28,412 nucleotides of DNA from a virus, in IMG/VR virus record IMGVR_UViG_3300003322_000706, positions 1 through 28,412 of that record, one strand, 5' to 3'. Below the pieces are notes generated by a model, which saw only the letters and a list, made by a program, of their open reading frames with translations, had not been told where the DNA came from and ran no database searches. The translations under genes were made by a program, and so were the position numbers. Numbering within the stretch: the stretch's first letter is position 1; each line of letters starts with the position of its first letter. Positions 18,182-28,412 of this stretch are shown piece by piece.

Positions 18182-21100
18182 ATGTCCCTTGGCTCGCTGA
18201 ATATTGACCTGAACGCGAACATCATCAAGTTTCAGGCCGCATTCGAGAAGGCTGCTTACATCGCGAACCAGAATATGGAAGCGATAGCCAGGGCGGCCGG
18301 CAAGGCCGAGTCGGCGATGAAGTCGCTTGAGGGCATGTTCGAGAAGGCCGGGCTGGCGATGGGAACGCTTGGCCTCGTTGGAGGCGCCGCAGGTCTCATT
18401 AGTGTCGCCAAATCGTCGATCGAAGGCGCGGTGGAACTCAAGCACCTATCCGACCAGACCGGCGCCAGTGTAGAGGCCCTGTCGGCGCTAAAAGCGGTAT
18501 CTAAACTCGTTGGCATGGATATGCAAGATGCCGGGGCTGGCGCGGCGAAACTGTCGAAATCGATGTATGACGCGCAGGGAGGCGCGCAGAAACAGCAGGA
18601 CACGTTCAAAAAACTGGGCGTCACATATCTGGACTCGACTGGCAAACTGAAGCCAGTCGGAGACGTGATGCTTGAGGTGGGAAAGAAGTTCGCCGACATG
18701 ACCAGCGGTGCCGGAAAAACCGGCCTCGCGATTGATCTGATGGGAAAAAAGGGGGCCACGATGATCCCCTTGCTTCAGCAGCTTGCTGAACGAGGGAACG
18801 TGGAGGGGAAGGTTACAACAGACTTAGCAGAAAAGGCCGAACATCTGGAAATTACCTGGACGAAGATGGTCGGTAAGCTGAATGCCTGGAAGGGGAGCGC
18901 CCTCGTTACAGTGATTCCGATTCTTGAGAAGGTTATCCCGATCCTACCGCAACTGGCGACCGGGGTCGTCGGATTTTTCACGATCACCAAGGTTTTGCCG
19001 GCAGCGATTACAGGAGTCACGACAGCAATCACAGCGCTGGGCGCCGCTACGTCAGGGGCTGGTCTAGTAGGCCTGGGGATGTTCACGAAATTACGCACCG
19101 CCGTGATTGCACTGAATACGGCGGTTCTTGCAAATCCATTTGCGGCGATTGCTGTCGCTATAGCTGCTGCTGCCGCCGCCGCATACCTCTTCCAGGACAA
19201 ATTAGTAACGATTGGTGGCACTGAGGCATCCATCGGGAATTGGATTGGTGGGGCATGGGATACATTGAAGGAGGGGATTCTGTCCGCATGGGATGCGATC
19301 TCACAATTCTTCGGCAAGGTACGTGATGCTTGGAATTCCTTTAAAGACAAGGTATCCGGCATCGGCAAATCGGTTGGCGATACTCTGTCGTCGTCTGGCA
19401 AGACTGCGATGCAATTCGCTGAGTCATTGTTTGGGGGCTATCTGAAGGTCGTAACGAATACGATCAATTCTGTCATCGGAGTTTTTGTCGGCGTGGGCCG
19501 CGCTATAGGGACGGTATTCAGTTTCATCTCGGATAACTGGAAATCCACATTGGAAAACATGTCCAATCTAGCAAAGGCATTTGGGCAAGGCGTTGCTGGC
19601 GTCTTTTCCGGCGATTTCAGCTTCTCGGCATTTCATACTGAATTGGGAAGACTTGGGGCAAGTGCCAGCCAATTAGCCGGCAATATTAAGGCAGATTTTT
19701 CAAAGGCCCTCGCCGCCGATTACCTGGGCGATGCAGCTAAGGGGATCGGAGGTGCCCTGAGCGATATTTGGCGAAAGATCGAGGCGAATGCGTTGGCCAG
19801 GAAGAAGGCTGAAGCTGAAGCAGCCGCGAAGAAATTAGGCCCTCCGGGTCAAAATACCGGCGATAGTAACGGGCAACTCGACCCATACAACCAAGCAATG
19901 TTGGAAATGCAGCGTCAAGCTGTCGGCATCCAGTACGTGATTGACAATTTTGATCGCTTGGGAGGTAAGGTCCGCGAATCCAAGGCCGCAATGGCTCAGT
20001 TCGATGTCACCCTGGGTAAATTCTCCGATACCGAACGCATCGCAGCTAAACTCTCCCCGCTCTCGGCGGCGCAGAAACAGGCATATATTGATCAGGCGAC
20101 ATGGCTTGACAACTTGGAGATGGCTCAAAAACGGCTTATCTCGCTGAAGAAATTCGATGACAGCGTGGCAAAGCTGAATGCAGAAACCGAGGGGCTTAAG
20201 CAAAGCGCTGTGCAGCGTGAAATTAATGCCGCACTCATCGCGCTTGAAAATGACGGCATCAAGAAAGGTACCGAGGAGTATCTGAAACGCCAAGCGGCGA
20301 TGTCGGCCGCAGTCCAGAACAAGTTCAAGACCAACTTCAATCTGGGGATGGCGGAATATCTGGAGCAGCAGCAGCGCGCCATCGACAACGAAGCGTTCAT
20401 GTTCTCCCTGATCGGCAAGGACACCGTCGAAGTTCAGAAGCTCACCGAAGCCCATCGAATAGATGGCGAAGTCCAGGAGGCCATCCGTAGGGCGCAGAAA
20501 GATGGCGTTCAGTTCACCAGCGATGAGATCGCTGCGGAATACGCGAAAGCCGATGCAATCAAGAAGATCAGGATGGACCAGATTCAAGCCGTCGCCGACA
20601 AACAGCGAAGCGGATGGTTCGGCGCCCAGGAGGCAATTCGCAAATATGGCGAAGCGGCCAATGATGTTGGATCTCAAGTTGAGGGTGCTCTGTCCAATGC
20701 GTTTAGAGGATTGGAAGATGCGTTCGTGAATTTCACTTCAACTGGCAAACTCTCGTTTAAAGGCTTGGTAAATTCGATCAATGCCGATATCGCCAGGATC
20801 GCATTCAAGCAAACCTTTAGCGATTTATTCGACGGCGCCGGAAGCATGATCAAGGGCCTGTTCGGCGCGTCGGCGTCGGCGTCCGCCGGCAATGGGGCGG
20901 CGAGTGCCGCTTCCGGCGCATCTGCTATGGCGACACTTGGTGCATCGGTCAGCGCAACCACCGCGCCGCTAGCAAGTCTCGCCGCATCGACGACTGGCCT
21001 GAATGCCGTTACCAGCGGCCTGGCCGCATCATTTGCCGCGCTAAACGGTGCCGTGCAGATCGCTGCGACCTCAATGTCTACCATGGGCGGGGCATCAGCC

Positions 21101-21415
21101 GTAGGCGATCTCGGCAGCGCGGCTGGGGCATTCGGAAGCTTCGGTGGCTTCTTCGCCGATGGTGGCGATCCTCCGGTAGGGAAGGTATCGGTCGTGGGTG
21201 AGCGTGGTCCGGAACTCTTTGTCCCGAAGGCCGCCGGCACAATCCTGCCCAATGAACTGTTTAGCCGCGGAAGCGATAGCGACCAGAAGCCATCCCAGAC
21301 CAACGTGATCAATCTGCATATCAACGTACCTTCTGGAACGTCGAGGGCGACTGCCGATCAGATCGCCGCCATGTCGGGCAATGCGGTGAACCGCGCCCTT
21401 CGGAGGAACGGATGA
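18182..21415 (+). CDS. Tail tape measure protein
   Basis: A 1077-residue protein that sets tail length and sits in the tube lumen. The N-terminal third is helical (KFQAAFEKAAYIANQNMEAI and GAVELKHLSDQTGASVEALS). Residues about 258-335 form a very hydrophobic, Ala-rich segment that may enter the host membrane. A long coiled-coil middle follows, and the C-terminal part, from about residue 815 (WFGAQEAIRKYGEAANDVGS, FTSTGKLSFKGLVNSINADI), is the lambda tape measure C-terminal domain. The tail end FADGGDPPVGKVSVVGERGP is common to this family. AAGGAG at 18170-18175 is the ribosome binding site. At roughly 1.5 angstrom per residue the tail would be about 160 nm. Confidence 0.93.
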   Translation: MSLGSLNIDLNANIIKFQAAFEKAAYIANQNMEAIARAAGKAESAMKSLEGMFEKAGLAMGTLGLVGGAAGLISVAKSSIEGAVELKHLSDQTGASVEALSALKAVSKLVGMDMQDAGAGAAKLSKSMYDAQGGAQKQQDTFKKLGVTYLDSTGKLKPVGDVMLEVGKKFADMTSGAGKTGLAIDLMGKKGATMIPLLQQLAERGNVEGKVTTDLAEKAEHLEITWTKMVGKLNAWKGSALVTVIPILEKVIPILPQLATGVVGFFTITKVLPAAITGVTTAITALGAATSGAGLVGLGMFTKLRTAVIALNTAVLANPFAAIAVAIAAAAAAAYLFQDKLVTIGGTEASIGNWIGGAWDTLKEGILSAWDAISQFFGKVRDAWNSFKDKVSGIGKSVGDTLSSSGKTAMQFAESLFGGYLKVVTNTINSVIGVFVGVGRAIGTVFSFISDNWKSTLENMSNLAKAFGQGVAGVFSGDFSFSAFHTELGRLGASASQLAGNIKADFSKALAADYLGDAAKGIGGALSDIWRKIEANALARKKAEAEAAAKKLGPPGQNTGDSNGQLDPYNQAMLEMQRQAVGIQYVIDNFDRLGGKVRESKAAMAQFDVTLGKFSDTERIAAKLSPLSAAQKQAYIDQATWLDNLEMAQKRLISLKKFDDSVAKLNAETEGLKQSAVQREINAALIALENDGIKKGTEEYLKRQAAMSAAVQNKFKTNFNLGMAEYLEQQQRAIDNEAFMFSLIGKDTVEVQKLTEAHRIDGEVQEAIRRAQKDGVQFTSDEIAAEYAKADAIKKIRMDQIQAVADKQRSGWFGAQEAIRKYGEAANDVGSQVEGALSNAFRGLEDAFVNFTSTGKLSFKGLVNSINADIARIAFKQTFSDLFDGAGSMIKGLFGASASASAGNGAASAASGASAMATLGASVSATTAPLASLAASTTGLNAVTSGLAASFAALNGAVQIAATSMSTMGGASAVGDLGSAAGAFGSFGGFFADGGDPPVGKVSVVGERGPELFVPKAAGTILPNELFSRGSDSDQKPSQTNVINLHINVPSGTSRATADQIAAMSGNAVNRALRRNG

Positions 21416-22002
21416 GCTTCAACGAGACCGCTCGATTTCCGCTGCAGATCGCGCTTGGGGCTCAAGGCGGCCCGGAATATACGACCAATATCATCACGGT
21501 GGATAACGGGTTTGAGAGCCGCACCGCTGTCTGGTCTGCGTCAAGGCTGAAGTTTGATATCGGCACCAGGCCGATGACGAAAGCAGATACCGACGCACTG
21601 ATCGCGTTCTTCCGATCTGTGAAGGGGCGGGCATACGGGTTCCGTTTCCGCGACTGGTCCGACTATCAGGCCACGACCGATAACGGCGGATTTACAGCCA
21701 TCGCTGGCGCGACATATCAGATGGTGAAAACGTATGCCTCGGGCTCGCTTTCGGAGGTGCGTAGCATCTCCAAGCCGGTTGCTGGCACCGTTTCGGTATC
21801 AGGATCCGGCGTATATTCGATCGACTACACGACGGGCATTCTGACTGTTGCATCTGGCGCGGCGCCGACGGCGTGGTCGGGTGAGTTCGACGTCCCTGTG
21901 CGTTTCGATACCGATACGATGCAGCTCGATGCCATTAACAAGAACGGCGAGAGCTTACTGATCCAATGGGGGCAAATCCCCATTCTTGAGGTAAGGGTAT
22001 GA
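21412..22002 (+). CDS. Distal tail protein, DUF2460 family
   Basis: A 196-residue protein of the DUF2460 family, also found in Rhodobacter gene transfer agents, where it forms the ring below the tube. Features are the N-terminal FNETARFPLQIALGAQGGPE, TIITVDNGFE-type strands (here NIITVDNGFESRT), the strongly conserved FFRSVKGRAYGFRFRDWSDY and a closing IPILEVRV. It starts in the ATGA overlap with the tape measure stop and overlaps the next gene likewise. Confidence 0.88.
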   Translation: MSFNETARFPLQIALGAQGGPEYTTNIITVDNGFESRTAVWSASRLKFDIGTRPMTKADTDALIAFFRSVKGRAYGFRFRDWSDYQATTDNGGFTAIAGATYQMVKTYASGSLSEVRSISKPVAGTVSVSGSGVYSIDYTTGILTVASGAAPTAWSGEFDVPVRFDTDTMQLDAINKNGESLLIQWGQIPILEVRV

Positions 22003-22850
22003 AGACGATCAGCGATGCGCTGAAGGCACATTATGCGCAGTCGGTAACCACTGTCGCGCACCTGGTGAAAATGACGCGTCGTGACGGAACGGTGTTGGCG
22101 GTAACGCCGGACCACGATCAAGACCTGACGTTTGATGGCGTCGTATATAAGTCGGCCTTCGGTGTCATCCCGACAGATGCCGAGACTTCTGCGGCGATGA
22201 ACGTCGATACAATGAGCGCAAAGGGTGCCCTCTTGGCGCTCGGGATCAGCGAGGCGGACATCGCTGCCGGACTGTGGGATCTGTGCGACGTCCGCGTACT
22301 TCGTGTGAATTATGCGGACCTCACCATGGGGGCGGAAAAGCTTAAGCGATATACCTTTGGAGAGATTTCCCTTGATCGCAATTCATTCACCTCAGAATTC
22401 CGGGGCATTACCCAGAAGCTGCAGCAGAACCTGGGCGACCTTGTAACGCCGACATGCAACGCGAATCTATTCGATGCCAGATGCGGCGTGCCGGAGACGG
22501 AGGGGCTGTATAAGTTCTCATCCCAGAGTGTCACGGCGGTCAGCAGTCAGCGGCTTTTTACTGTGGCAGCGCTCATGCAGCCGGCCGACTTCTTCACCGC
22601 GGGGAAGGTCCAGTTCACGTCTGGCGAAAATTCCGGCCTCTCGATGGAGATCAAGCAGCACCTGTACGGCGGCGAACTGATACTGCAGGAGCCAATGCCT
22701 TACCCAATCGCGATCTCTGACAATGTGACGGTATGGTCTGGTTGCTCGAAGAGGTCTGCAGAGGATTGCCAATCCAAGTATGACAACGTGATCCGGTTTA
22801 GGGGATTCCCGAAAATACCTGGTCAGGATCAGATGTACAAGGGCGTGTGA
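21999..22850 (+). CDS. Tail hub protein, DUF2163 / phage_BR0599 family
   Basis: A 283-residue tail tip hub protein, the counterpart of lambda gpL and of the gene transfer agent hub. Residues 1-150 correspond to DUF2163 and the rest to the phage_BR0599 domain (LFDARCGVPETEG to the end). Four cysteines, C153, C162, C249 and C257, sit in the pattern TPTCNANLFDARCG and SGCSKRSAEDCQSK. In lambda gpL and in gene transfer agent hubs the equivalent cysteines bind an iron-sulphur cluster, so the same is expected here. It overlaps the distal tail gene by ATGA. Confidence 0.88.
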   Translation: MKTISDALKAHYAQSVTTVAHLVKMTRRDGTVLAVTPDHDQDLTFDGVVYKSAFGVIPTDAETSAAMNVDTMSAKGALLALGISEADIAAGLWDLCDVRVLRVNYADLTMGAEKLKRYTFGEISLDRNSFTSEFRGITQKLQQNLGDLVTPTCNANLFDARCGVPETEGLYKFSSQSVTAVSSQRLFTVAALMQPADFFTAGKVQFTSGENSGLSMEIKQHLYGGELILQEPMPYPIAISDNVTVWSGCSKRSAEDCQSKYDNVIRFRGFPKIPGQDQMYKGV

Positions 22851-22908
22851 TGCGGCTGCCAGTTGATGGCATTCAAGCCAGACATGAATGTGCGGGATAG
22901 GGAAGCTA

Positions 22909-23322
22909 ATGGCGACACGTGAACAGCTTGTGCGCGAGGCCCTGGAATGGGTGGGAACACCGTTCCATGCGAATCAGGCGGCAAAAGGGCTGGGAGCCGA
23001 CTGCGTGGGCACCGTCGCTGGCATTGCGACTGCATGCGGCATCGCGCTCCACGACGTGAAGCGGGCATATCCATTGCGCCCTGACGGGACACTGAAGCCG
23101 TATATGGAAAGCCACCTCGAACGCATCGAGGGTAGCCCGGCACCGGGGGATGTGCTGTTGATGGCATTCGACGGGAATGAGCCGCATCATTTGGCAATGT
23201 ATGTTGGCGATGGAAAGATCGTTCATGCATATGTTGGAGCGCGGCGCGTAGCAGTGCAGGCATATACCGAACATTGGAAGAATATGGTCGTCGGTGCTTA
23301 TCGATTCCCGGGAGTTGAGTAA
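22909..23322 (+). CDS. NlpC/P60 family tail peptidase
   Basis: A 137-residue cell-wall peptidase of the NlpC/P60 fold that sits at the tail tip and cuts peptide cross-links during DNA entry (lambda gpK and gene transfer agent counterparts). The catalytic cysteine is C32 in GADCVG. The histidine is probably H94 in HHLAMYVGDGKIVHAY and the third polar residue is probably H106. MATREQLVREALEWVGTPFH is the usual family start and a GGGAAG ribosome binding site lies upstream, so 22909 is preferred to the in-frame ATG at 22888. The 58-base gap before it holds only a 16-codon frame of no clear merit. The stop overlaps the next start. Confidence 0.92.
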   Translation: MATREQLVREALEWVGTPFHANQAAKGLGADCVGTVAGIATACGIALHDVKRAYPLRPDGTLKPYMESHLERIEGSPAPGDVLLMAFDGNEPHHLAMYVGDGKIVHAYVGARRVAVQAYTEHWKNMVVGAYRFPGVE

Positions 23323-26300
23323 TGTCGTTACTTGGCGCTGCAGCGGCGGCGGTTACATACGCCTTCACTTACAACCCCCAGTTCGCGGCGATTGCCTATT
23401 CCATCGGTTCGGGCGTTGATGCGGCTTTGCACCAGCCAGATCGCATCGGGCCGCGTTTAAATGATCTGAGTACTCAGATGTCCGTTTATGGGAATCCGAT
23501 CCCATTCGAATACGGTTGTAACCGTCACGCCGGAACAGTGATGTGGCCGCAGACTCTGAAGGCAGTCGAGCACGAAACCACGCAAAGCGCGAAGGGCGGG
23601 GGCGAGCAGAAGACATTTACGTACACGATGTCATTCGCAATCCTGGTTTGCGAAGGCCCGATAGCTGGAATCCGGCGCGTCTGGGCAAACAAGAAGCTGG
23701 TCTATGATGTCTCCGCAAGCAATACGGGGGCGACAATGGATCCGGCCATCGGCCAAATCCGGTTCTATCTCGGCACGGAAGATCAGGAAGTAGACCCTCT
23801 GATCGAGGCTACAGATGGTGCGAGCCCGGCTTATCTTGGCTATGCCTACGTGGTCTTTGAAGATTACGACGTCACGGAGATGAATGGCCGGCCGCCGCAA
23901 TTTGAATTCGAAGTCATCACATCTGGCTCGCCGGAATTCGCCGAACCGGTAAACATCGGCGACGGTGAGTTGATGGCGCTATTTTCTGATCCGGTATCCG
24001 GTGCTACCACGCTTCATGCTGTATATGGAAGCACCGACTACATATATGACCCAGAAACATGTGAGTTGATTGGTGAGGTTGGGTTCCCGACCGGAGTCTC
24101 GTCAATTGTTGCCGCTGATGGTGGCCTCTGGGTTGGACACTCCGAGTCGGGCGCCGTCTATGGCCGCTGCGCGACCTTCCTCGCCGTCCAGGCAGACGGT
24201 ACCTTCAGGATCGGCGAGACCATCAATTTCAGTTATGCCGGAGCGGTCAGCAAGTTAGCAACAGTCGCATACAATTCTGGCGATCACACGGTCTATGGCT
24301 TCGTCAACAACGGGCTTGGCTCAGGGGCCATCCATCATCTTGGCCCAAACAACGATGCTGATGCCGGAATTCCTGCGCCGAACTGGGTTTACTATGTCGT
24401 GGAAATGCCGGATCGCGGGCAGATCGCAGTTGCTGGCTACGGCAATTGGTTATTGGTCACCTCTTTCGGAGGCGGCACCCCTGTCTACAATGGTGACTGG
24501 GGTTCGAATGTAGAAGGTCACCGGTTCTGCTATGACCAGGTCAGGGCGTGCATCTACTGGGCCTGCATACTAAATTCTAACGTCTACAAACTTGATCTTG
24601 CGTCCAATACTCTTTCCAGGATCGTCACGACGGCGCCGCTGCAAGGTATGCATTATGACCCCCATACCGACCTGATTTATGTGGATAACGGCGGCGATCT
24701 TCTTGTATATGGCCTCGACGGAACGTTGATGGAAACGCGGACTGGCGCAGGAGTGTTGGCTGGACAAACCCGCGGCAACAGTGTTCCTTATAACGACCGG
24801 TACTATTTCGTCGCTGAAAGTGGCGTGGTATGGAAAATCCCTATCGGAGGCAGGCTTGCCCCCAACACGGTCCTCTTGGGCGACATCGTATCCGATATTT
24901 GCCAGCGCGGCGGCCTTACCACCGGGGATCTGAACGTGTCGCAGCTCACCGACGAGGTGATCGGATATCCCGTGCCACACCAGATGGCGGGGCGGGCCGC
25001 GATCGAGCCATTGCAGCAGGCATTTTACTTTGACGCGGTCGAGTCGGAGGACCAGATCAAGTTTGTGAAGCGGGGATCTACGGTGGTCACAACCATCCCT
25101 GCTGTAGATCGTGCCGCGCATGAGCATGGACAGGAGATGCCGGCAAACCTGCAGGTGACCCGGGCGTTTCAAACCGAATTGCCCATCCAATGCGACGTGC
25201 AATACCCCGATATCGATGCGGACCATCAGATCGGAAACCAATATGACCGCCGCATCACCAAAGACACACGGCAGCATCTGACGGTGCAATTGGCCATCGT
25301 CATGAATGCAGTAAAGGCTAAGGAGGTTGCCAGGACCATGTTGTACCAGGCATGGCAGAACAATACTTTTAAATGGACCACCACCCGGAAGTACGCATAT
25401 TTGGAGCCGACCGATATCGTCAGTCTCCCCACGGACGATGCAACGTATCGAGCCAGGATTACGCTCCGCCGTGATCAGCCCAATGGGATCATTCAATGGG
25501 AAGGTGCGATGGAATCGGCGGAGGTATTCACGCAGTCTGGCGCCGATGGCGTTACGCCTCCATACGCTTCGCAGACGATCTTCCAGCCCTCCACAACCGT
25601 CCTGGAGCTGATGGATATTCCTATCCTGCGCGACGAGGATCAGAACAAGGGATTCTATGTCGCCATGTGCGGCACTGAGCAGAGCTGGCCAGGTGCAGAA
25701 GTATTCCGCAGTGAGGATGAAGGCAGCACATATAACTCGATCCTCGCATTTTCTGATAAATCGGCGATAGGGACCGCGATATCATTGCTACCGAATTTCA
25801 CTGGTGGGAATATATTCGATGAAGGTAACACCGTAACCATCGTGATGGCGCGCGGCACTACGCTTCCAAGCTATACCGAAACGCAGGTACTGAACGGCTA
25901 TGGCGTAGCCGCACTCGGCCGCGATGGCATATGGGAGATCATTCACTACAAGAATGCAACTCTTATTGGACCGAATACCTATGAGCTATCGGGGTTGTTG
26001 CGCGGCTGTCGGGGAACGGAATGGGCGATGTCCCTCCATAAGGTCGATGATTCCTTCATACTCGGGTCTGATGTGGCGTGGCGCATATACAACCCACCTT
26101 CGCGCGACCTGAATCAGGAGCGACTGTATAAGGCACCTGCATTCCGCACGAAGCTTTCGGATGCTGCCTCTCAGACATTCACGGATCGCGCCGCGCGGCG
26201 CCGGCCATATTCCGTTGCTAACCTCAAAGCTGAGGCGCTGAACGATGGAGGATTTGTATTTTCATGGGCGCATCGGAGTCTCGTTGGCGGAGAATGGTTA

Positions 26301-27815
26301 AGCGGTACGGATGTGGCGCTCGACGGTACATTCACAACCTTTAGTATTACGATCAGCACCGTCGACGGAGACGTCTCGAAGAGCTATACAACGGCCGATG
26401 AATTCTTCGTCTACTCGCCGGGCTCGATAACCGCTGATTTTGGCGGTATCCCGCCTGTATTGAAATTCAGGGTGGCGCAGAAGAACAGCGACTATGGGGA
26501 TGGCATTGGCGTCAGCATCAGGACTGACAACCAGACACCGTTCTATGATTTCTCGGCACCTGGCGCAGATCCGTATGCGCCACCGCCGGTCATTGATCCG
26601 GTTCAGGCGGCCAATCCCGGGAACCCAACTCAAACTGATAATACTGTCACGGGCAACCCATGGGGGGCGCCGCGGCTGTGGAATGGCACCCATTTCATCG
26701 CGCCATCTGTATATGAGCTGGTGGTCGACGGTACTCCGAGCCCGCTCTGGCTCAGCACTGACGGACTGACTTATACGGCAATGTCGCCAAATAATCTTCC
26801 ATCCGGCGTTCCTTTCGATAAGGTTTGCTTTGACGGGACGACGTATGCTGTTGCGACGCCGGGCGAAGGGAACCCTTACCGCATCCATTACAGCACGGAT
26901 CTCACAAACTGGACGCAGGCTGTCTACGGCGCTTATCCGTCCGGCTTCCCAAATGACAGCGGCGACGCGATCGTGAAGATTATCAAAGCTGATGGACGAT
27001 TTATCGCGCTGCGTAAGAAGGGCGAGATCATGTCTAGCACCGATGGGGCGCACACATGGCAACATGACTGTTGCATCTCACGCCCAGGCGACTTGAGCGA
27101 CGCACTGATGGATCCGAACCAAACAACTGAGCTATTTGACATAGCTTATGGTGGCGGGATGTACGTGGCGGTCGGCATGGTAGTAAAAAATCTCTATTAC
27201 TCATCAAGCTATGACGGGCCGTACACGAGCTTGTACCTTAACTTCACGACTGATTCACGCGTTGCCACTGAATTGCAATCGGTCGAATATATCGGCGGAA
27301 AATTCTACGCCATAGGCGGGAAGAGGTACTTCTTTGCGCCGCCGCCGAGCACATATTTCGTCGCTACTCCTGTAGTACTGCGCAGCTCTGATGGGGTGAC
27401 ATGGGAGGATATTTCTCCTGCGCCTACGCTCGCTGCGGACTATTGGAAAGGCAATGACGCTCTGAGGATATTCTCGCTATCCAGTGGCCGCCTGGTCGTT
27501 ATAGGGGAAAACGCGGACTATACGAGCGACGATGGCGGCGATACATGGACGATGATCTCTCGCTTGGATCCGAATGAAACAGGCTACGACCCGGTGACCC
27601 GTGTATTCAAGGGATATATTTCGCGATTGCTTGGAGGGGCGACTAACGGCACGTTCATTGCGGTCCGCGAGGAGCACTGGCGCGCAGTCAAGCAGGCGCT
27701 CGCTGCCGGTGTGCCGCCCAACGAAGTGCAATATGTTTACGACTTGTATTTGAAGCCGCTGATATTTGACGGCGTGACCTATACGCCTGGTCTCTGGACG
27801 CCTTACACGCCGTAA
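23322..27815 (+). CDS. Tail tip / host-specificity protein with two beta-propellers
   Basis: A 1497-residue protein at the position of lambda gpJ and of the gene transfer agent megatron. Residues 1-200 are the conserved hub start (PIPFEYGCNRHAGTVMWPQT, FTYTMSFAILVCEGPIAGIR). Residues about 203-507 are an insert with YncE/NHL-like propeller repeats (GGLWVGHSESGAVYG, YDPHTDLIYVDNGGDLLVYG). The Phage-tail_3-type core resumes at about 508 (VLLGDIVSDICQRGGL) and runs through TYELSGLLRGCRGTEWA near 890-906. A fibronectin-III-like domain covers about 967-1080. The C-terminal 410 residues carry Asp-box repeats at about 1144 (STDGLTYT), 1190 (STDLTNWT), 1238 (STDGAHTW), 1292 (divergent), 1354 (SSDGVTWE) and 1401 (SDDGGDTW), as in a six-bladed sialidase-like propeller. 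The last is probably the receptor-binding head; no sialidase active site was identified. Confidence 0.88.
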   Translation: MSLLGAAAAAVTYAFTYNPQFAAIAYSIGSGVDAALHQPDRIGPRLNDLSTQMSVYGNPIPFEYGCNRHAGTVMWPQTLKAVEHETTQSAKGGGEQKTFTYTMSFAILVCEGPIAGIRRVWANKKLVYDVSASNTGATMDPAIGQIRFYLGTEDQEVDPLIEATDGASPAYLGYAYVVFEDYDVTEMNGRPPQFEFEVITSGSPEFAEPVNIGDGELMALFSDPVSGATTLHAVYGSTDYIYDPETCELIGEVGFPTGVSSIVAADGGLWVGHSESGAVYGRCATFLAVQADGTFRIGETINFSYAGAVSKLATVAYNSGDHTVYGFVNNGLGSGAIHHLGPNNDADAGIPAPNWVYYVVEMPDRGQIAVAGYGNWLLVTSFGGGTPVYNGDWGSNVEGHRFCYDQVRACIYWACILNSNVYKLDLASNTLSRIVTTAPLQGMHYDPHTDLIYVDNGGDLLVYGLDGTLMETRTGAGVLAGQTRGNSVPYNDRYYFVAESGVVWKIPIGGRLAPNTVLLGDIVSDICQRGGLTTGDLNVSQLTDEVIGYPVPHQMAGRAAIEPLQQAFYFDAVESEDQIKFVKRGSTVVTTIPAVDRAAHEHGQEMPANLQVTRAFQTELPIQCDVQYPDIDADHQIGNQYDRRITKDTRQHLTVQLAIVMNAVKAKEVARTMLYQAWQNNTFKWTTTRKYAYLEPTDIVSLPTDDATYRARITLRRDQPNGIIQWEGAMESAEVFTQSGADGVTPPYASQTIFQPSTTVLELMDIPILRDEDQNKGFYVAMCGTEQSWPGAEVFRSEDEGSTYNSILAFSDKSAIGTAISLLPNFTGGNIFDEGNTVTIVMARGTTLPSYTETQVLNGYGVAALGRDGIWEIIHYKNATLIGPNTYELSGLLRGCRGTEWAMSLHKVDDSFILGSDVAWRIYNPPSRDLNQERLYKAPAFRTKLSDAASQTFTDRAARRRPYSVANLKAEALNDGGFVFSWAHRSLVGGEWLSGTDVALDGTFTTFSITISTVDGDVSKSYTTADEFFVYSPGSITADFGGIPPVLKFRVAQKNSDYGDGIGVSIRTDNQTPFYDFSAPGADPYAPPPVIDPVQAANPGNPTQTDNTVTGNPWGAPRLWNGTHFIAPSVYELVVDGTPSPLWLSTDGLTYTAMSPNNLPSGVPFDKVCFDGTTYAVATPGEGNPYRIHYSTDLTNWTQAVYGAYPSGFPNDSGDAIVKIIKADGRFIALRKKGEIMSSTDGAHTWQHDCCISRPGDLSDALMDPNQTTELFDIAYGGGMYVAVGMVVKNLYYSSSYDGPYTSLYLNFTTDSRVATELQSVEYIGGKFYAIGGKRYFFAPPPSTYFVATPVVLRSSDGVTWEDISPAPTLAADYWKGNDALRIFSLSSGRLVVIGENADYTSDDGGDTWTMISRLDPNETGYDPVTRVFKGYISRLLGGATNGTFIAVREEHWRAVKQALAAGVPPNEVQYVYDLYLKPLIFDGVTYTPGLWTPYTP

Positions 27816-27840: not shown

Positions 27841-28412
27841 ATGACCACAGAAATTCTGGGGCTGGACGAGCTTTCGTCTTCGCAAAGCGGAAAAGAGGTG
27901 ACGCACAACACTGCACTGCGTCAGATCGAGGGCAAGCTTGTCCGCGCGCTGAGCAAGACGCTCACCGCCGCGCCATCGACACCGGCTAACGGCGACGTTT
28001 ATATCGTCGCGGCGAGTGCTACGGGAGCATGGTCGGGGAAGGACAACAACATCGCGCACTTCTTCGGCGGGAGCTGGAAATACTACGTACCGATCCACGG
28101 CAATAGCCTATGGGTCTGCGCCGACGACAAGCGATATGTGTTCAATGGTACCAACTGGATTGTTGAATCGGGCGCGGTGCTGGCCGATGGAGATTATGGG
28201 GACATAATCGTATCGGGCAGCGGCACAGCGATGTCGCTCGACATTAATGGCGCAGCAGCAAAGACGACTCCTGTCGACGCCGACTGCGTTGCGCTGATGG
28301 ACAGCGCTGCCTCGAACGTGCTGAAAAAGCTGAGCTGGGCCAACATCAAGGCGACCCTCAAGACATATTTCGACACGCTCTACGCCCCGCAGGCACAACC
28401 GTTTGATCTGAC
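27841..28412 (+). CDS. DUF2793 tail fibre protein, 3' partial
   Basis: An open frame from ATG 27841 to the window edge, 190 residues visible. The N-terminus (EILGLDELSSSQSGKEVTHN) and PANGDVYIVAASATGAWSGK, then FFGGSWKYYVP and YVFNGTNWIVESG, match DUF2793, a module at the N-terminus of tail fibre proteins that attaches them to the tail tip. The following VALMDSAASNVLKKLSWANI and KTYFDTLYAPQAQP is a linker common in phage fibres. The receptor-binding end lies beyond the window. AGG about ten bases upstream is a weak ribosome binding site. Confidence 0.85.
   Translation, partial: MTTEILGLDELSSSQSGKEVTHNTALRQIEGKLVRALSKTLTAAPSTPANGDVYIVAASATGAWSGKDNNIAHFFGGSWKYYVPIHGNSLWVCADDKRYVFNGTNWIVESGAVLADGDYGDIIVSGSGTAMSLDINGAAAKTTPVDADCVALMDSAASNVLKKLSWANIKATLKTYFDTLYAPQAQPFDL

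Follow-up and report, generated by a model that had tools for sequence, protein, structure and literature searches.

The 28,412-base virus record IMGVR_UViG_3300003322_000706, analysed here over its whole length and called the window below, is probably a genome fragment, since its genes reach the record's end. It contains a megatron-type tail-tip gene, a single open frame at 23322-27815 on the plus strand encoding a protein of 1497 amino acids, which we denote P0001. This protein carries two modules in addition to a core like that of the gene transfer agent RcGTA: an internal one that is probably a beta-propeller, and a C-terminal one for which the prediction of an Asp-box propeller is well supported. 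Collected relatives are given L-numbers, among them L002 (IMGVR_UViG_3300005513_000187) and L013 (IMGVR_UViG_3300003323_000052).

The locus is a siphophage tail cluster with an RcGTA-like baseplate, in which the gene order Dit, hub, NlpC/P60, megatron is present as listed for RcGTA (PMC8265664) (Table 1). The original prediction described P0001 as a tail tip protein with a conserved hub core, at 23928-27812. The core is instead that of an RcGTA-type megatron (g15), the name 'hub' belonging in gene transfer agents (GTAs) to the neighbouring gene at 21999-22850; and the gene begins at 23322, position 23928 falling at residue 203, where the insert starts. An assembly or sequencing fusion of two genes was ruled out, because L002 and L013 have the same unbroken frame. 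Terminase matches, consulted for the host, were scattered and less than 60% identical, and the closest slot homologue, L096, comes from a Rhodocyclaceae metagenome-assembled genome; a host in the Betaproteobacteria is only a guess.

Table 1. Domains of the megatron gene and adjoining tail genes (window coordinates; residues are those of P0001)
Feature	Position	Strand	Basis
Tape measure	18182-21415		
Distal-tail-like protein (DUF2460), RcGTA Dit position	21412..22002	+	Pfam DUF2460 4.6e-50
GTA-type 'hub' (phiJL001 Gp84 N-terminal + BR0599)	21999..22850	+	Pfam 2.1e-48, 2.5e-23
NlpC/P60 tail peptidase, RcGTA g14 position	22888..23322	+	Pfam NLPC_P60 2.5e-9
Iris/penetration equivalent, residues 1-42	23322..23447	+	position relative to RcGTA 1-46; alignment with isolated phages
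Adhesin-like domain, residues 43-202	23448..23927	+	51-209 aligned to RcGTA 63-212
Slot module (RcGTA peripheral/TIM site), probable beta-propeller, residues 203-515	23928..24866	+	alignments; Foldseek, low-confidence model
Central and fibre-binding domains, residues 516-1062	24867..26507	+	RcGTA alignment; Pfam
Pro/Asn-rich linker, residues 1063-1110	26508..26651	+	sequence
Predicted C-terminal Asp-box (sialidase-type) beta-propeller, residues 1111-1497	26652..27812	+	motifs, AlphaFold, Foldseek, internal repeat
Stretch with six Asp boxes (residues 1145, 1191, 1239, 1296, 1355, 1402)	26754..27548	+	motif scan
DUF2793 tail-fibre-like gene, cut by window end	27841..28410	+	Pfam DUF2793 2.8e-21; PHROG tail fibre families

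A megatron core with two additional modules

P0001 matches the Pfam families Phage-tail_3 (residues 554-714, 1.9e-29) and Rcc01698_C (815-912, 6.9e-22), both above the gathering cut-off, as well as PHROG family phrog_4271 (2e-163). The NCBIfam model GTA_megatron (NF048004) is matched at 3e-123 with 412.9 bits, which falls short of the equivalog cut-off of 800; P0001 is therefore a homologue and not an equivalog of the RcGTA protein. Among PDB sequences it matches the megatrons of RcGTA (6tba, 1.5e-49) and of phage R4C (8gtc, 5.5e-39). Two separate blocks align with 6tba, residues 51-209 with RcGTA 63-212 and residues 519-1066 with RcGTA 766-1300 (of 1304), which confirms that an adhesin-like domain at the N-terminus precedes the central and fibre-binding domains. 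The adhesin-like domain is 99% identical to that of L002 and 63.5% to that of L013; the linker behind the fibre-binding domain is weakly conserved (31.6% identity to L013 over residues 1063-1100).

The published domains of the RcGTA megatron are iris/penetration (1-46), adhesin-like (47-229), peripheral (230-744), central (745-984) and fibre-binding (985-1304) (PMC7296036). Together with the two-block alignment, these boundaries place the insert of P0001 at the site of the peripheral domain, hereafter the slot, and put everything after about residue 1066 beyond the usual C-terminus, so that roughly 430 residues extend past the RcGTA end. The insert had originally been read as interrupting a continuous core; RcGTA in fact has a TIM-barrel domain at this site, which elsewhere is empty or occupied by other modules. 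P0001 has no Pfam match to the GTA_TIM peripheral domain and carries an unrelated module in the slot, and hence is a megatron homologue that is not of the TIM-bearing kind.

The C-terminal domain spans residues ~1083/1111 to 1497 and contains six Asp boxes spaced 46-59 residues apart. The pattern S-x-D-x-G-x-x-W, composed after the sequence had been inspected, gave 7 overlapping matches, whereas 2000 shuffled sequences gave 0.24 on average and 4 at most. An internal repeat is also significant, with a self score of 79 against a shuffle mean of 42 and maximum of 59. The AlphaFold model is of moderate confidence, with a mean predicted local distance difference test score (pLDDT) of 60, with core blocks mostly at 65-90, and its top Foldseek match in the PDB is YCF48 (E=6e-10, prob 1.00, template modelling (TM) score by target length 0.55-0.60); GH74 and sortilin structures also match, and the best viral structure matches are phage proteins, some of them labelled DUF6242, BNR or tail fibre. 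No Pfam BNR or sialidase family lies above the cut-off on this domain, and DUF6242 reaches 1.7e-4, below threshold. Good evidence thus supports the predicted Asp-box propeller at residues 1111-1497.

Could this propeller, and perhaps the slot module too, be an enzyme, a GH74- or GH33-like depolymerase of capsule or exopolysaccharide analogous to the TIM-barrel hydrolase-like domain? Foldseek matches of the C-terminal model include GH74 xyloglucanases and GH43/GH117 hydrolases, and the slot of relatives does hold a GTA_TIM glycoside-hydrolase-like barrel (1.2e-143 in one of them). However, the most frequent of the top matches is YCF48, a non-enzymatic Asp-box propeller; GH74 enzymes form their cleft from two propellers, whereas the C-terminal domain of P0001 is a single one; and no glycoside hydrolase family is found above the Pfam cut-off in P0001. 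We therefore regard an enzymatic role as improbable.

The slot module is a foreign segment from residue ~203 to ~515 that homologues, that of Tetraselmis virus S20 among them, lack. Related slot sequences were found only in L002 (92% identical), L013 (27%) and L096 (about 21%), and the AlphaFold model of the insert was built on these and P0001, four sequences in all. The model is all-beta and of low confidence (pLDDT 43, predicted TM score 0.44), with successive four-strand units over its residues ~160-278, where pLDDT is about 45-73. All 50 Foldseek matches listed are propeller-containing chains, judged by name (WD40, YncE), with E values of 2e-5 to 4e-4 and TM-scores of about 0.35; the YncE structure 3vgz ranks 15th among them (E 1.3e-4). 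At the sequence level the insert has no match to a Pfam, PHROG or NCBIfam profile, its own profile found nothing significant among PDB sequences, and none of its internal repeats is significant. HHalign comparison with other slots was strong only for L013, which is itself in the query; L020 (38%) was not used.

Another all-beta fold in the slot, such as stacked beta-sandwiches or a ConA-like lectin, would agree with the low pLDDT and the missing propeller profile, and a LamG/ConA fold is known in the same slot of one relative (L125). We consider such a fold unlikely, since the structure matches listed are all propeller-containing by name, the C-terminal half of the model is made of four-strand units, ~310 residues suit 6-7 blades, and propellers of several families occur in relatives' slots. 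The insert is probably a beta-propeller. Of the originally proposed pair of propellers, the terminal one is well supported, by the six motifs, the internal repeat and the YCF48 match, and the internal one is less certain: YncE appears among its listed structure matches, but no family profile matches it.

Slot and C-terminal modules among megatrons

Relatives were gathered from viral contigs and prokaryote genomes and cut at conserved borders by profile. The sample consists of best matches to P0001, found with patterns from few seeds, and this bias means that its shares are not population frequencies. Of the 160 megatrons surveyed, 31 have a slot of at most 40 residues ('empty'), another 31 carry a TIM barrel there, and the remaining 98 carry other modules, of 216-676 amino acids. 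An alignment with isolated phages shows an empty slot in Tetraselmis virus S20, TIM barrels in Rhodobacter and Desulfofustis phages, and different modules of ~380-430 amino acids in Lacusarx, Mwe-JY26, EliS-L02 and CcrPW. In this alignment the slot of L005 is empty, and those of L008-L010 hold the TIM barrel. Recognisable occupants include LVIVD propellers (L028, L039), Asp-box propellers (L100 by BNR/sortilin profile, L014 by motif), a single regulator-propeller match (L043) and the lectin fold of L125. Profiles of other slot clusters gave at most marginal matches to SMP-30 and a 'stabilization protein' among PDB sequences and were not used as evidence. In Caulobacter phage CcrPW (L012:2-7016), two adjacent megatron paralogues have cores that are 54% identical and slot modules that are unrelated. 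An empty-slot megatron (L116:5001-7241) lies on a short contig binned as Archaeoglobales, probably a misbinned phage contig.

C-terminal extensions of more than 60 residues are confined to 13 of the 160 megatrons and lacking in 147; LamG, F5/8 type C and beta-helix modules make up those that could be classified. LamG was found in L028 and L051, and F5/8 type C in L030. The megatron at L044:1892-7021, whose slot holds a 489-residue module, ends in a proline-rich linker and a tailspike-like right-handed beta-helix (Pfam Beta_helix 3.2e-6). A third module position is seen in the 1719-residue megatron at L037:4974-10130, where an insertion of ~650 residues in the fibre-binding domain reads, by sequence alone, as three tandem LamG/ConA-like repeats. 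At a Neoroseomonas prophage-like locus (L138:4941-9377), the core match is broken by ~260 residues shortly before it ends (model position ~504-525); these may be an insert close to the end of the fibre-binding domain.

The Asp-box C-terminal module was found only in P0001, L002 and L013. It is absent from the sister L096, and no copy lies elsewhere in the genomes of L096, L097 and L098, which points to a single gain. Across 299 genomes of L096's family, the C-terminal module gave only two weak partial matches, and the insert was found only in L096's own genome. Neither module had a tblastn match in isolated phages; searches of viral contigs with the insert, the C-terminal module or the core singly retrieved only L002, and alignment-based queries with the two modules found nothing further than L002 and L013.

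In a tree of 147 usable megatron cores, P0001, L002, L013 and L096 cluster together inside a 20-member clade (support 0.80), all 20 of whose members carry a slot module of 272-347 amino acids. The prediction that such a propeller pair is uncommon thus applies to the combination, present in 3 of 160 megatrons and in one clade, and not to the slot module itself, which is standard there. The core tree needs 5 changes of slot class (empty, TIM or other), compared with a shuffled mean of 52, so that wholesale class exchange is rare. Slots can nevertheless be unrelated or absent at 45-57% core identity (for example, L059 and L171, whose slot is empty, at 45.6%), which leaves the suggested swapping between phages only partly upheld; within the 'other' class, replacement and fast divergence are inseparable here. 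Between P0001 and L002 the ratio of non-synonymous to synonymous substitution rates (dN/dS), with dS near saturation, is 0.009 for the adhesin-like domain, 0.021 for the insert, 0.030 for the central and fibre-binding domains and 0.076 for the C-terminal module. The C-terminal module is by this measure the fastest-diverging and least constrained part of P0001.

Surface binding as a candidate role

In RcGTA and R4C, three megatrons carry the fibres and shut the tail channel with their N-terminal helices, which form an iris; contact between baseplate and cell surface was proposed to open the iris, and both structure papers propose variable baseplate domains to be sugar-binding (PMC7296036, PMC10276861). 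By analogy, three copies of P0001 would probably form a threefold baseplate tip, in which the conserved iris helix and the adhesin-like, central and fibre-binding domains would bind the fibres and keep the channel shut. The slot propeller would sit near the adhesin-like ring, and the Asp-box propeller would hang from a flexible linker that follows the fibre-binding domain. Both are most likely non-catalytic pads for a glycan or outer-membrane receptor, which may be displayed in three copies each around and below the tip; their binding could orient the baseplate and help to trigger iris opening.

We favour, with some reserve, the reading of P0001 as a megatron with a slot propeller and a terminal Asp-box propeller that serve as two surface-binding modules. 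In its favour are the mapping onto solved megatrons with published domain roles, the gene order, the structure matches and the fast divergence of the C-terminal module. Recognisable propellers or lectin folds fill the same slot in relatives (L028, L039, L100, L014, L125), and lectin-like or tailspike-like modules are found at the C-terminus or as insertions in others (L028, L051, L030, L044, L037). Several results weigh against it: besides the low-confidence insert model and the insert's lack of profile matches and of a significant repeat, most of the 98 'other' slots have no profile match and no assigned fold; each module has only three or four homologues, so that both structure models come from shallow alignments; and every dN/dS value lies far below 1, indicating purifying selection with no sign of positive selection.

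Both modules might instead be structural, bracing the baseplate or docking tail proteins such as fibres with no contact to the host. YCF48 matches include peptide complexes, and contact with the RcGTA peripheral domain partly positions the fibre-binding domain (PMC7296036). We think this improbable, as 31 of the 160 megatrons do without a slot module and 147 without a C-terminal extension, and other occupants are lectin-like.

Extending the surface-binding reading, one might tentatively see the megatron as a chassis of general use that offers three or more docking positions (the slot, the fibre-binding-domain insertion as in L037, and the C-terminus) for interchangeable recognition modules, most slots being fast-diverging beta-propellers and the two modules of P0001 binding different ligands and jointly gating DNA release; this broader proposal we hold to be distinctly more doubtful.

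P0001 joins known parts at a known point of variation, in a combination that is rare and an architecture that is slightly unusual. Among the papers searched, the one on the RcGTA structure is alone in bringing megatron, propeller and phage together, and its propeller belongs to the fibre (PMC7296036); the RcGTA and R4C papers describe the peripheral domain and one variation of it, in R4C (PMC7296036, PMC10276861). Gene transfer agents and many phages of aquatic and soil Proteobacteria have RcGTA-like baseplates, and a slot that can be empty or hold a TIM barrel, a lectin fold or a probable propeller, with a second module that can be added at the end, offers a simple hypothesis for how a phage or GTA is matched to its host surface. 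The slot and C-terminal modules form a small set of domains for expression and testing.

Compared with known propellers, the C-terminal domain has its fold and Asp-box repeats in common with YCF48, sortilin Vps10 and GH74, and differs from them in its phage context and in having no family match above cut-off. L002 and L013 have the same two-module architecture, with whole-length identities of 91% and 44%; L013 is only 27% identical in the slot and 42.5% in the C-terminal module. L028 and L039 likewise combine an internal propeller (LVIVD) with a C-terminal module of surface-binding type, which unlike that of P0001 is LamG/ConA-like (by Pfam LamG in L028, and by homology to it in L039). L014 (1358-2257) and L100 (5574-6500) have the Asp-box propeller in the internal slot, the fold that P0001 has C-terminally, and no C-terminal module. 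The RcGTA megatron (Rcc01698/g15; 6tba, 6teh) has the same order of iris, adhesin-like, central and fibre-binding domains and the same neighbours Dit, hub and NlpC/P60; in place of its peripheral (TIM) domain at 230-744, P0001 has a probable propeller of ~310 amino acids, and a C-terminal extension of ~430 amino acids with an Asp-box propeller is absent from RcGTA. The megatron of phage R4C (vBDshSR4C_016; 8gtc) shares the core and also varies in the peripheral region, within which a carbohydrate-binding domain is nested (PMC10276861); R4C thus keeps and extends the peripheral domain, whereas P0001 replaces it and carries a further module at its C-terminus.

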